A DNA stretch of 64,000 nt, taken from NCBI GenBank assembly GCA_902573735.1, contig CACGLH010000003.1, forward strand, positions 1 through 64,000. The letters run 5' to 3'. The position numbers were made by a program, and so were the translations under genes. Source of the stretch: an uncultured Alphaproteobacteria bacterium (GTDB lineage Bacteria; Pseudomonadota; Alphaproteobacteria; Rhodobacterales; Rhodobacteraceae). Shown here in pieces: positions 55,937 through 62,465 of the stretch; the stretch's first letter is position 1; every line of letters starts with the position of its first letter. The notes under the pieces were generated by a model that was not told the origin of the DNA, ran no database searches, and saw only the letters and a list, made by a program, of their open reading frames with translations.

Positions 55937-58363
55937 TTATATTTTTCTTTCCCACCAACCACTTTTTGAAGTTTTGCTTTCAGGATTGTTTTTTTTATCT
56001 GTGCTCTTTTCTTGAATTATTTCATGGTTATTTTCTAAAACTTCCTTAACTTTTTTCACAACCCTTTTTCTTACTGTATTTTTATTTTCTTTTACTGAGT
56101 TGTTAGAATTGAGTAAATTTTCAATTTTTTCAACTGGTTGTTTTGATTTAGTATTGTTATTTCTAATTTTATCTGGTTTTTTTCTTTTATTTTTATCTAT
56201 ATCAGTATAATTCACTTTTTTAATAATTTCTGAAACATTATTAACTTCTATTTCATCAGATTTAACATTTTTAATTATTGATTTATTTGTTTCTTCTGAA
56301 TTTTTATTTGTATTTTTGTCTTCTATATTAAAATCATATTTGCGAAATTTATTATTTTTTCTTCTACGTCTTTTTGAATACTTCAATTTGTTTTCTTTGT
56401 TATTTTCATTTGTTTGTAAATTATTATCTTGGATTATGGATTTATTTGTATCTTCTTTTATGTAATTTTTATTGCTACTATCAATAGTAATAACATTTGA
56501 TGAAGATGAAATTTCTTCTGAATTTATAAGATTTTTATTATACTCAATTAAATAGTTAGGATTATTTAATGACAAATCAGAAATTATAAAAATATTAGTA
56601 TTAATTTCCTTCTCGATTTCAGATAAATATCTCCTCTTTTGATTTAATATATAATTTGCAACATCTACAGGAACTTTTACATTAATTCCTGTTATGTTTT
56701 TTTCTAATTGTAAATTTTCTAATTTTCTTAAGATCGATAAAGATAAGTTCTCATTAGATCTTGTTAGGCCAGTTCCATGGCAATTGGTGCAAAGCATTGT
56801 CGTTGCTTCAATCATACCATATCTTAGTCTTTGACGTGACATTTCAAGTAAGCCGAATGAAGAAATTTTACCAACTTGTATTCTTGCTCTATCAATCTTG
56901 AGACTGTCTCTCATTCTTTTTTCAACTAGGATATTATTTTTTCTTTCTTCCATATCAATAAAATCTATTACAATTAATCCTGCAAGATCACGCATTCTTA
57001 ATTGTCTTGCTATTTCATCAGCCGCTTCAATATTTGTTCTTAAAGCAGTTTCTTCAATTCCACTTTCTTTGGTTGCTTTACCAGAATTTACATCTATTGC
57101 TACTAATGCTTCGGTTGTTCCTATAACTATATATCCACCTGATTTAAGCTGGACAGTAGGGTTAAACATTCCAGATAAATATTCTTCAACACTAAAAAAA
57201 GAAAAAATGGGTATTTTATCGTCATACTTTTTGATTTTTTTTGAATGAGTAGGCATAAGCATTTTCATATATTCTTTTGCTTCATTAAAACCAGTTTCAC
57301 CTTCCACTATTATCTCACTGATATCTTTAGAGTATAAATCTCTAATAGTTCTTTTTATAACACTTCCTTCTTCATAAATTGGACATGGAGCTATAGATTT
57401 GAGTGTAAGATTTCTTATTTGTTCCCATTGTCTCAAAAGATATTCATAATCTTTTCTTATTTCAGATTTTGTTTTTTTTGCACCTGCTGTTCTTATAATT
57501 AAACCCATTTTGTCAGGAATAGAAAATTCATTTGCAGTTTCTTTTAGTTTTTTTCTATCCCCCATATTAGTAATCTTTCTAGAAATACCGCCACCCCTTG
57601 CAGTATTCGGCATTAATACGCAATATCTACCAGCTAATGAAATATACGTTGTGAGAGCAGCTCCTTTATTTCCCCTTTCATCTTTAACAACTTGTATTAA
57701 CAAAACTTGTCTTACTTTAATCACTTCTTGGATCTTATATTTATTTTTAGTGAGTGATTTTTTTTGTTTTAAAAGTTTATTTACCTTAAAAGTGTTTTGC
57801 TCAAGCGAAATGGTTTTAGTTATGTTTGACTGATCATGATAATTTATATCAGAATTAAAATTGTCAGATTCTATATATTCAGTAATTTTTGCTTCTTTTT
57901 TTTCATCTGAATAAAACTTAAGAGTTTTTTTTGTGTCTTCATTATTGTTAAAATTTGAAGCTTTTTGAATTTGAGATAAATCTTTAGATAAAAAAACTTC
58001 ATTCTCAAATGAATCTAAGTTCTCTAAAGTAACATTCGAAAATTCAACTTCGATATTTTCATTCTTTTCATCTTCTAAATCAAATACATCTTCCAAAAGC
58101 AATTTTTTATCAGCTATAGGAATTTGGTAATAATCAGGATGAATTTCAGAGAATGCTAAAAACCCGTGCCGATTTCCACCATAATCTAAAAAAGCGGCTT
58201 GTAGAGATGGTTCTACTCTAGTAACTTTTGCTAAAAAAATATTTCCAGCAATTTGTTTTTTATTAATTGCTTCGAAATCAAATTCTTCAACTTGTTGATT
58301 ATTTAAAAGTACAATCCTTGTTTCTTCTTGATGAGAAGCGTCTATAAGCAATTTTTTTTGCAT
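55937..58363 (-). CDS. rne: Ribonuclease E/G
   Basis: S1 domain split by acidic insert; IVIDFIDMEERKN, FGLLEMSRQRLR, Zn-link CTNCHGTG; basic low-complexity C-terminus. Confidence 0.93.
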   Translation of the reverse strand: MQKKLLIDASHQEETRIVLLNNQQVEEFDFEAINKKQIAGNIFLAKVTRVEPSLQAAFLDYGGNRHGFLAFSEIHPDYYQIPIADKKLLLEDVFDLEDEKNENIEVEFSNVTLENLDSFENEVFLSKDLSQIQKASNFNNNEDTKKTLKFYSDEKKEAKITEYIESDNFNSDINYHDQSNITKTISLEQNTFKVNKLLKQKKSLTKNKYKIQEVIKVRQVLLIQVVKDERGNKGAALTTYISLAGRYCVLMPNTARGGGISRKITNMGDRKKLKETANEFSIPDKMGLIIRTAGAKKTKSEIRKDYEYLLRQWEQIRNLTLKSIAPCPIYEEGSVIKRTIRDLYSKDISEIIVEGETGFNEAKEYMKMLMPTHSKKIKKYDDKIPIFSFFSVEEYLSGMFNPTVQLKSGGYIVIGTTEALVAIDVNSGKATKESGIEETALRTNIEAADEIARQLRMRDLAGLIVIDFIDMEERKNNILVEKRMRDSLKIDRARIQVGKISSFGLLEMSRQRLRYGMIEATTMLCTNCHGTGLTRSNENLSLSILRKLENLQLEKNITGINVKVPVDVANYILNQKRRYLSEIEKEINTNIFIISDLSLNNPNYLIEYNKNLINSEEISSSSNVITIDSSNKNYIKEDTNKSIIQDNNLQTNENNKENKLKYSKRRRRKNNKFRKYDFNIEDKNTNKNSEETNKSIIKNVKSDEIEVNNVSEIIKKVNYTDIDKNKRKKPDKIRNNNTKSKQPVEKIENLLNSNNSVKENKNTVRKRVVKKVKEVLENNHEIIQEKSTDKKNNPESKTSKSGWWERKI

Positions 58364-58744: not shown

Positions 58745-60793
58745 ATGAGATCATTAGCAAAAATTTTTATACCACTGATTTTATTGAATTTTCTTGTAAT
58801 TATTTTTTTTTACTATGCATATATCTTTTATAGTAAAAATTTGCCTGATATTAATGAAATCACAAATTATGAACCTAAAACACTTATAAAAATTTATGAT
58901 AAACATGATAAGTTAATAGGATTATTTTTTGATGAAAAAAGGGAATTTATAAATATTAATAAAATACCGCCAACCATAATAAATGCATTTTTAAGTGCAG
59001 AAGATAAAAATTTTTTTAAACACCGTGGGTATGACCTTAGTGGTTATTTTAAAGCAATTATTAGTTTTTTAAAAGACGGTAATCTTAGAGGTGCATCAAC
59101 CATAACACAGCAATTAACCAAAGGATTTTTATTATCTGGTGAAAGAACCTTTGAAAGGAAAATCAAGGAATTTATTTTAGCTCTTCGTTTAGAAAATGCT
59201 TTATCAAAAAATGAAATATTGGAACTTTACTTAAATGAGGTTTATCTTGGTGAAAATTCTTATGGAGTTTTAGCAGCATCAAATACTTACTTTGCAAAAG
59301 ATCTTTATGAACTAACTCCAGGTGAAGCTGCTTTTTTAGCATCACTACCAAAATCACCTGATAATTATAATCCTAAGTTTAATATTACTAATGCAGTAAA
59401 TAGAAGAAATTTTGTGCTAAAAGAAATGTTTCAAAATAAATTCATAGATAAAAAAATTTTACAAAATGAATTAAATAGAGAACTCGTTACAAATTCCAAT
59501 AATAATTTTAATGATAAAAATAATTACAGATTACTAGAGGGATTTTTAGCAGATCAAATTAGATTAGATCTAAACTATCTGTTTGATAGTAATTTTTTGT
59601 CTAGGGGTAACGTAATAATTAAAACAAGTTTAGACTATGATCTTCAAATAGAAACAAACAAAATATTAAAAAATGAATTAATAAATTTAGATAAAAAAAA
59701 TAATCTTATACAACCACCTTTAAAATCAATAAATTCATTAAACTTTGATATTAACAATTGGAAAGAAATATTACAAAATTATGATAATCAGAAAATTATT
59801 TCTAGTTGGGATTTAGGAATAATAGCAAAAATAGATAATAGTAATTTTTATATAAAAACAAAAAGATCTAAAAAATTATTTAAGTTACATTTCCCATATA
59901 CAATTCAACCTACTTTTTCTGTTGGAGATATTGTTTATTTTAAAATTGAAAAAAATAGTGGTAAATTTATCTATCAGCAAGTACCAAATTTTGATGGTGG
60001 TGTTTTAATTCTAGAAAGGGATACTAATAAAATTTTAGCTTTGGATGGAGGGTTTAGCTATTTTTCTACTAGCCTAAATATGGTTACTGAAAAAAAACAA
60101 AATTTAAAAAAAGCATTATATCCTTTTTTAAATTTTCTTATACTTGATCCAAGTGTATTTTCTAACTCTAGTGAAGATTTACAATTTAATTTGAATAGAC
60201 TAGAAGAATTAAGTAATAAAATTTATTCAAATGATACCTATAAAAATAGAAATTTAGTTATTTTTAATACAAAGAATATAAATGAGCTTGGCTTAAATTT
60301 TATTTCAAAAATTATAAATACTAGTCTTTTCATAAGTGATAGTAATGAAATATTAATTAATTCAGAAATGTCATTATTTGATTTAATGTCTTTTTATAAA
60401 ATTTTACTTAGTAAAAATTATTCAACCAAAACTAGATTAATTGAAAATGTTTATAAAAATGAAAAAGAAGTAAACTTTATCGGAGAAATAAATCAAATAA
60501 ATCATAAATCGAATGAATTCATAGAAAATACTTTATTTAAAAATAAGGAAATTGTTAAATTTTTAAAATTACAAAATTTTATAACAAAAAATTTTGAAAA
60601 AAAATCAAACAATAAAATTTTTTATGGATGGAATATTTATGATAAAGAGAATGGGTTTACACTATTTATAGGTTTTAATAACAAAAAAATAATAGGGTGC
60701 TACATTAATCAAATAAATCCAATTATTTACAATAATGATAGTGATAGTTTAATTAATAATTCTTGTATAAATGTAGTAAAAAAACTATTTTAA
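58745..60793 (+). CDS. PBP1A-like class A penicillin-binding protein; glycosyltransferase (GT51) intact, transpeptidase domain degenerate
   Basis: GT51 motifs SAEDKNFFKHRGYDLSG, GASTITQQLTKGFLL, RKIKEFILALRLE, LYLNEVYLGENSYGVLAASNTYFAKD; no SxxK, SxN or KTG in the C-terminal half. Confidence 0.88.
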   Translation: MRSLAKIFIPLILLNFLVIIFFYYAYIFYSKNLPDINEITNYEPKTLIKIYDKHDKLIGLFFDEKREFININKIPPTIINAFLSAEDKNFFKHRGYDLSGYFKAIISFLKDGNLRGASTITQQLTKGFLLSGERTFERKIKEFILALRLENALSKNEILELYLNEVYLGENSYGVLAASNTYFAKDLYELTPGEAAFLASLPKSPDNYNPKFNITNAVNRRNFVLKEMFQNKFIDKKILQNELNRELVTNSNNNFNDKNNYRLLEGFLADQIRLDLNYLFDSNFLSRGNVIIKTSLDYDLQIETNKILKNELINLDKKNNLIQPPLKSINSLNFDINNWKEILQNYDNQKIISSWDLGIIAKIDNSNFYIKTKRSKKLFKLHFPYTIQPTFSVGDIVYFKIEKNSGKFIYQQVPNFDGGVLILERDTNKILALDGGFSYFSTSLNMVTEKKQNLKKALYPFLNFLILDPSVFSNSSEDLQFNLNRLEELSNKIYSNDTYKNRNLVIFNTKNINELGLNFISKIINTSLFISDSNEILINSEMSLFDLMSFYKILLSKNYSTKTRLIENVYKNEKEVNFIGEINQINHKSNEFIENTLFKNKEIVKFLKLQNFITKNFEKKSNNKIFYGWNIYDKENGFTLFIGFNNKKIIGCYINQINPIIYNNDSDSLINNSCINVVKKLF

Positions 60794-60872: not shown

Positions 60873-61973
60873 ATGAGATCTGAAATTCAAGAATTAATAG
60901 ATTTAATAGAAAAGTCCTTGAATTTATTTTCTGAAAGAAAAAATATTGATGATTTAAAAAATAAATTAGAAGAATTAGAAATAATCTCCGGTAATTCAGA
61001 TTTTTGGAAAAACTCAAATAATGCTAAATCCATTATGAAGGAAAAGCAAACTATTGAGAGGAATATCTTAACTTATCAAAATTTAAAACAAAAATTAAAC
61101 GACAATATTGAACTCTATAAGCTTGCAATTGATGAAAATGATTTTGATATTCAGAGTGAAATAGAAAATGATTTGTTTAAACTTAAGTCAATTGCTTTAA
61201 ATGCAGAGCAGGAAGCATTGATGGATGGTGAAATTGATGGAAATGATACATTTTTAGAAATCAATGCTGGTGCTGGAGGAACTGAGAGCTGTGACTGGGC
61301 ATTGATGATATCCAGGATGTATTTAAGATGGTCCGAAAGGAAAGGTTTCAAAATAGAATTGGTTTCACAAAATTATGGTGATGAAGCAGGTATTAAGTCT
61401 GTAGCATATAAAATAATGGGCCTTAACGCTTATGGTTGGTTGAAAGTTGAAAGTGGAGTTCACAGGTTGGTTAGAATATCACCATTTGATAGTTCAGCAA
61501 GAAGACATACTTCATTTTGTTCAGTTTGGGTTTACCCTGTGATAGATGAAAGTTTCCAAATAGAAATAAATCCTTCAGATATTAGGGTTGATACTTATAG
61601 GTCTTCAGGAGCAGGTGGACAACATGTAAATACAACTGATTCAGCAGTAAGAATCACACATATACCTACAGGAATTGTAGTTACAAGTTCTGAAAAATCA
61701 CAACATCAAAATAGAACTAACTGCATGATGGCTCTTAAATCAAGGTTATATGATTTGGAGCTTAAAAAAATGAATAAAGATATTCAAGAAGCACATAATT
61801 CAAAAGGAGATGCAGGTTGGGGAAATCAAATAAGGTCATATATTCTTCAACCTTATCAAATGGTAAAAGACTTGAGAACCAATTACGAAACTTCAGACAC
61901 TCAAGGCGTTTTAGATGGTAAAATTGATGAGTTTATTTTAAGTGCACTTGCGAAAAGAATAAATAGTAAGTAA
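60873..61973 (+). CDS. prfB: Peptide chain release factor 2
   Basis: GGTESCDWALMISRMYLRW, SSGAGGQHVNTTDSAVRITHIPTG; single uninterrupted ORF. Confidence 0.96.
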   Translation: MRSEIQELIDLIEKSLNLFSERKNIDDLKNKLEELEIISGNSDFWKNSNNAKSIMKEKQTIERNILTYQNLKQKLNDNIELYKLAIDENDFDIQSEIENDLFKLKSIALNAEQEALMDGEIDGNDTFLEINAGAGGTESCDWALMISRMYLRWSERKGFKIELVSQNYGDEAGIKSVAYKIMGLNAYGWLKVESGVHRLVRISPFDSSARRHTSFCSVWVYPVIDESFQIEINPSDIRVDTYRSSGAGGQHVNTTDSAVRITHIPTGIVVTSSEKSQHQNRTNCMMALKSRLYDLELKKMNKDIQEAHNSKGDAGWGNQIRSYILQPYQMVKDLRTNYETSDTQGVLDGKIDEFILSALAKRINSK

Positions 61974-61982
61974 CTAAAAAAT

Positions 61983-62465
61983 TTAATTTACAAGTTTGCC
62001 ATTTTTTAAATCAGATTTTACGAGTGGATTTTCTGTTTTTTCAATTGAACCTTCAAAATGTGCTCCTGTTTCTATTGCAATTGTATTATGAATAATATCA
62101 CCTTCAACCTTAGCTGAGGATGTTAGAGTTACTTTTTTTGATCGTATTGTTCCAGAAACAAAACCATTAATAATTAGTTCATTTGTATTGATCTCACCTT
62201 TAATCTTTGCATTTTGGCCAACTGTTAAAAGGCTTGCCTTAATATTGCCTTCAACTTCTCCTTCTATTTGAATATCTCCAGTTGTAGTTAAGTTTCCCTT
62301 AATGAATAAATCAGTAGATAGTAGAGATGGTGGAGAGCTCTCAGAATTTTTCATAATATTTTTTTCTACATTATAAGATGTTTCAATTAAATCTGTTTCA
62401 ACTATTTCATTTGTAGGATTATTTGTTGCTTTTTTTATCTCATTTGATTTTGGTTTAGAAAACAT
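61983..62465 (-). CDS. Bactofilin family polymer-forming protein
   Basis: TDLFIKGNLTTTGDIQIEGEVEGNIKASLLTVGQNAKIKGEINTNELIINGFVSGTIRSKKVTLTSSAKVEGDI. Confidence 0.92.
   Translation of the reverse strand: MFSKPKSNEIKKATNNPTNEIVETDLIETSYNVEKNIMKNSESSPPSLLSTDLFIKGNLTTTGDIQIEGEVEGNIKASLLTVGQNAKIKGEINTNELIINGFVSGTIRSKKVTLTSSAKVEGDIIHNTIAIETGAHFEGSIEKTENPLVKSDLKNGKLVN

Follow-up and report, generated by a model that had tools for sequence, protein, structure and literature searches.

The window, a 64,000-nt stretch of a contig of the Rhodobacteraceae, carries between rne and prfB an open reading frame for a 682-aa protein that consists of a membrane-anchor helix, a GT51 glycosyltransferase (GT) domain, a linker or OB-like region with beta strands at residues 356–411 of the AF2 model, and a C-terminal remnant of a transpeptidase (TP) domain (Table 1). 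The preliminary description was centred on positions 59990–60793, which correspond to this C-terminal TP remnant. Pfam matched Transglycosylase (Transgly) at residues 62–228 with an E value of 7e-58, and Transpeptidase (PF00905), sought in the same protein, gave no match even at E ≤ 10. The NCBIfam model PBP_1a_fam (TIGR02074) was matched over profile positions 1–297 of 535 only, at 271.5 bits and below the cut-off of 508.75. The protein is not a monofunctional glycosyltransferase consisting of GT51 alone, as some 450 residues lie beyond the GT domain, and its score against the MtgA profile TIGR02070 was 128 bits, below the cut-off of 182.65. GT51 with conserved motifs, at a locus common to the orthologues of the family, identifies it as an orthologue of PBP1A. 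It lacks the PF00905 domain with SxxK, SxN and KTG that is expected of a bifunctional class A PBP, and it has the properties of a pseudoenzyme, with catalytic residues lost from a domain that is kept under selection in the clade. Length was previously described as conserved, which proved incorrect: at 682 aa the protein is about 100–200 aa shorter than its relatives (about 780–900 aa). The TP region measures 270 aa compared with about 296 aa in intact relatives, and alignment with intact PBP1A showed the C-terminal tail to be missing.

Table 1. Features of the PBP1A-type gene and its neighbours in window coordinates
Feature	Residues	Position	Strand	Basis
PBP1A orthologue with dead transpeptidase domain	682 aa	58745–60793	+	Open reading frame; TIGR02074 match; synteny with family orthologues
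N-terminal membrane-anchor helix	2–30	58748–58834	+	Long helix in AF2 model, pLDDT 81–90
GT51 glycosyltransferase domain	62–228	58928–59428	+	Pfam Transgly; motifs invariant; dN/dS 0.12
Catalytic Glu of GT51	E86, E142	59000–59002, 59168–59170	+	Codons
Linker / OB-like region	236–412	59450–59980	+	Alignment to intact PBP1A
Pseudo-transpeptidase domain, about 270 aa	413–682	59981–60790	+	Alignment with live TP; no PF00905; Foldseek; dN/dS 0.32
Former SxxK site, now KALY	K456–Y459	60110–60121	+	Alignment, codons
Former KTGT site, now WNIY	629–632	60629–60640	+	Alignment, codons
Kept cysteine pair	C652 (60698–60700), C674 (60764–60766)	60698–60766	+	Alignment, codons
rne, syntenic upstream marker		55937–58363	-	Neighbour conserved in dead-form genomes
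prfB, syntenic downstream marker		60873–61973	+	Synteny

The GT motifs EDxxFxxHxG, GASTITQQ, RKxxE and ILxxYxN vary little or not at all between dead and live proteins and, together with the Transgly match, uphold the earlier assignment to the class A PBPs with an intact glycosyltransferase half. In the TP half, the columns that hold SxxK, SxN and KTG in all 26 intact relatives aligned are occupied in the window protein by KALY, a gap and WNIY. The catalytic serine is replaced by K456 (60110–60112) and the catalytic lysine by Y459 (60119–60121), and KTG has become WNI at 60629–60637. A pairwise alignment with PBP1A of H. influenzae (5u2g) placed the former SxxK segment in matching register. 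The exchanges of Ser for Lys and Lys for Tyr, and the lack of SxN and KTG(T/S), were therefore read correctly in the preliminary description. Among six dead orthologues, the window protein included, the position of the catalytic Ser is occupied by K, K, E, E, E and E, and that of the catalytic Lys by Y, F, M, E, N and N; as these residues differ between orthologues, the site has drifted after the loss. SxN is replaced or deleted and KTG lost in all six, with the K of KTG persisting in four. No invariant SxxK or KTG was found elsewhere in the six proteins, so that relocation of the catalytic residues was rejected, and the TP remnant holds only one invariant Ser (S540). With all three motifs gone in the six and present in the 26 live relatives, the TP half is read as catalytically dead, as had been proposed.

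The genus, a group of small-genome, AT-rich Rhodobacteraceae, comprises 12 genomes, with the gene assembled in six; the remainder are uninformative, as four gave no prfB and in two the contig stops at prfB or within it. Every assembled copy is of the dead form, with identities to the window protein of 72% in L034 and 34–37% in L035–L038, and its frame is open, without stop or frameshift, in all six assemblies. The six proteins group as a single clade (support 0.999) in a tree built on the N-terminal and GT region, and in each genome the gene adjoins prfB and is divergent from rne, as in the window; the gene is also found upstream of prfB in the family genomes G048 and G038. A dead state shared by six independent assemblies is more than chance. 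Alignment of orthologues, which the preliminary description had put forward as a check, places the loss of SxxK as fixed in the genus down to about 35% identity. Strain-specific decay was rejected because the dead state is common to the six genomes, and a frameshift or assembly error was rejected on the strength of separate assemblies, open frames and codon-level constraint. The genus itself splits into a sublineage of 26–28% GC (the window and L034) and one of 35–36% GC (L035–L038), and the identity of about 36% between them in a PBP1A-type protein is unusually deep for a single genus. The CxxC pair of intact alphaproteobacterial PBP1A (e.g. ECVDC) is present as KCRQC in L035–L038 and lost in the sublineage of the window.

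To define the distribution of the dead form, a profile of the TP remnant was searched over 397 genomes from 396 genera of Rhodobacteraceae. Scores were 350–438 bits within the genus and did not exceed 52 bits outside it, among ORFs that were nearly all about 840–960 aa. Within this set, the dead form is confined to one genus and PBP1A is full length elsewhere; 16 of the 397 genomes gave no match, four with PBP1A cut by contig ends and the rest without PBP1A in the assembly. A first search of the family covered 60 other genera, and the 29 loci retrieved from it all have SxxK and KTG. The nearest matches in a search of the contig database were for the most part proteins of SAR11 in which the motifs are intact. 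Over a 16S fragment, a member of the genus shares 92.5% identity with Sulfitobacter, which supports assignment to the family Rhodobacteraceae and no further.

In two other small-genome genera, represented by G183 and G392, the PBP1A gene is cleanly absent between rne and prfB, which face one another over an empty interval of 350–440 bases (8338–8686 in L242 of G183 and 5257–5697 in L240 of G392). Both are reduced genomes (2.1 and 2.3 Mb, local GC 35–36%) that keep another class A PBP, and both branch between the genus and other family members in a small tree of rne and prfB that may be distorted by shared AT-richness. Beside prfB, the window carries a bactofilin-like gene (61983–62465) that is conserved at the locus in the family members checked. 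Bactofilins are cytoskeletal and linked to the cell wall in other bacteria. At positions 767–3399 of L179 (G071), a prx-bactofilin-prfB block lies directly after dsbA in inverted order, on a contig that breaks off within prfB. This order suggests that the segment from rne to prx was inverted locally, or that the contig is misassembled.

Selection on the two halves was estimated as dN/dS for four pairs of dead proteins by NG86, a simple method that ignores composition bias. The GT domain gave 0.07–0.12, indicating strong constraint, and the TP remnant 0.32–0.43, with no bootstrap sample reaching 1. In live pairs the two domains gave equal values, 0.02–0.05 in the closest and 0.13 in two others. 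At a GT identity of about 0.66, TP identity was 0.74 in live pairs versus 0.23 in dead pairs. The remnant contains no stops across six lineages, with about 19–23 expected per 270 fully randomised codons of the same composition. Judged from these codon comparisons, the TP remnant is under relaxed yet real constraint by purifying selection, and the earlier observation of a reading frame open to the end holds for a domain that is maintained. The C-terminal segment G-x(4)-D-x(4)-F-x(3)-IG-x(7)-GC-x-I is invariant in all six dead orthologues, as are C652 and C674, which are also present in the live orthologues of Rhodobacteraceae and may form a disulfide.

The AF2 model of the full protein (pLDDT 75.7) found matches along its length in the PBP1A proteins of H. 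influenzae and A. baumannii. Modelled alone, the TP remnant reached a pTM of 0.72 and a pLDDT of 69, with confident outer beta strands and a poorly predicted alpha subdomain; the AF2 alignment included live relatives, which may partly supply the fold. All of the top 50 Foldseek matches listed for this model were class A PBPs (best E value 4e-4), at TM-scores of about 0.4–0.46. The predicted TP fold is recognisable but eroded, with the beta-sheet core kept. Retention of the transpeptidase fold, as first suggested, is consequently supported in so far as the class A PBP topology can still be recognised in the models, and needs qualifying for the erosion reflected in the TM-scores.

The preliminary description also raised the possibility of a lineage with reduced peptidoglycan cross-linking, which gene content does not support. 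The window genome (1.93 Mb, 77% complete) keeps an intact PBP2 adjoining a RodA-like gene, an intact FtsI, a second class A PBP (664 aa, intact, above the PBP_1a_fam cut-off) and three candidate YkuD L,D-transpeptidases; since cross-linking enzymes are present, a lower degree of cross-linking does not follow. For G061, G062 and G068, absence of the second class A PBP, which would have removed class A transpeptidation altogether, was considered and found to be unsupported, as its MlaC-like neighbour likewise is lacking there or lies at the edge of a contig.

Motif loss, its fixation in the genus, constraint on the remnant and the presence of other transpeptidases are established at the level of sequence. 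The most probable interpretation is that the gene encodes a PBP1A-type glycan polymerase with a pseudo-transpeptidase domain, the strands of which are cross-linked by other enzymes. The GT51 domain would polymerise lipid II into glycan strands, and the TP domain, as a pseudoenzyme, would no longer cross-link them. A reduced TP fold, comprising the central beta-sheet and the cysteine pair, appears to be kept under moderate purifying selection, probably because it aids the synthase, as a scaffold, in stability, positioning or contact with partners. Cross-linking would then occur in trans through PBP2, FtsI, the second class A PBP and/or L,D-transpeptidases. Retention of the remnant is most simply explained by structural support, with slow decay as the main rival. 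That two related small-genome genera dropped the gene means it may be dispensable, and the models are of medium confidence (mean pLDDT 69–76).

Slow decay would mean that the protein is required for its GT activity alone, that the TP domain persists as a vestige because abrupt truncation would be destabilising, and that the gene is heading for loss, an outcome already reached in related reduced genera. The collapse of TP identity relative to GT fits this course, the rate of evolution of the remnant relative to GT being several-fold that in live proteins, as do catalytic replacements that differ between sublineages and the clean loss of the gene from G183 and G392, the neighbours of the genus in the small rne and prfB tree. 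However, TP dN/dS is well below 1 in all four pairs, with zero stops, the cysteine pair and beta strands are retained, and the dead state is common to lineages with only about 23% TP identity; decay is on the whole regarded as unlikely. Constraint without catalysis, and the invariant C-terminal segment, could instead reflect a new specific function, such as docking of a regulator or another transpeptidase, or peptidoglycan binding; as the invariant positions are in the main structural ones of ancestral origin, not newly conserved, we regard this as quite doubtful. A more pointed proposal, that the pseudo-TP was repurposed as a dedicated regulatory or docking module that passes nascent glycan strands on to another enzyme for transpeptidation, perhaps an L,D-transpeptidase, is doubtful as well; if true, this would be a class A PBP lineage in which polymerisation and cross-linking have been divided in nature. 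Persisting catalysis through displaced residues or unusual chemistry is highly improbable, with nothing positive to recommend it beyond the retained K of KTG in four orthologues, and against it S540 as the one invariant Ser, no invariant Ser-x-x-Lys, and SxN and KTG gone throughout. The genomes of the genus are all MAG-like and incomplete, as an artefact of assembly or frameshift would have it, but open frames under codon-level constraint in six separate assemblies make this explanation virtually untenable.

In class A PBPs, polymerisation and cross-linking are regarded as coupled activities. Here, the TP domain has been dead long enough to diverge to about 23% identity, the GT domain remaining near-normal, so that nature appears to have uncoupled them. 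No report of a natural class A PBP lineage with fixed loss of all three TP motifs was found in the open-licence PMC literature. A direct precedent is provided by PBP1b S510A of E. coli, which retains lipid II polymerisation and whose GT activity is sufficient by itself when the L,D-transpeptidase YcbB carries out cross-linking (PMC5089857). As would be the case here, a class A PBP with an inactive TP polymerises and another enzyme cross-links; S510A, however, is a laboratory point mutant with an intact fold, whereas the window form is natural, fixed and eroded. In C. difficile, septum synthesis needs the GT activity of PBP1 and its TP activity is dispensable for division, with both required for growth (PMC12539705). 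Natural class A PBPs without SxxK have been described in Streptomyces; in these, SxN and KTG are for the most part kept, and the two domains are reported as preserved (PMC6273383). The window protein likewise lacks the catalytic SxxK, but has lost the other two motifs as well.

The lineage could serve as natural material for finding out which non-catalytic contributions the TP domain makes, and for obtaining a polymerase insensitive to penicillin. Set beside the two genera without the gene, it provides comparison points for class A PBP erosion in reduced genomes. With PBP1A (MrcA/PonA) of Rhodobacteraceae, SAR11 and gammaproteobacteria the window protein shares the membrane anchor, GT51, linker and a still recognisable TP topology, and with that of Rhodobacteraceae also locus and gene order; it differs in the absence of SxxK, SxN and KTG, the shortened TP domain and the missing C-terminal tail. 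GT51 activity without transpeptidation is likewise expected of MtgA, which, unlike the window protein, measures about 230–275 aa and has no linker or TP region. Several members of the genus carry both MtgA and the dead PBP1A.
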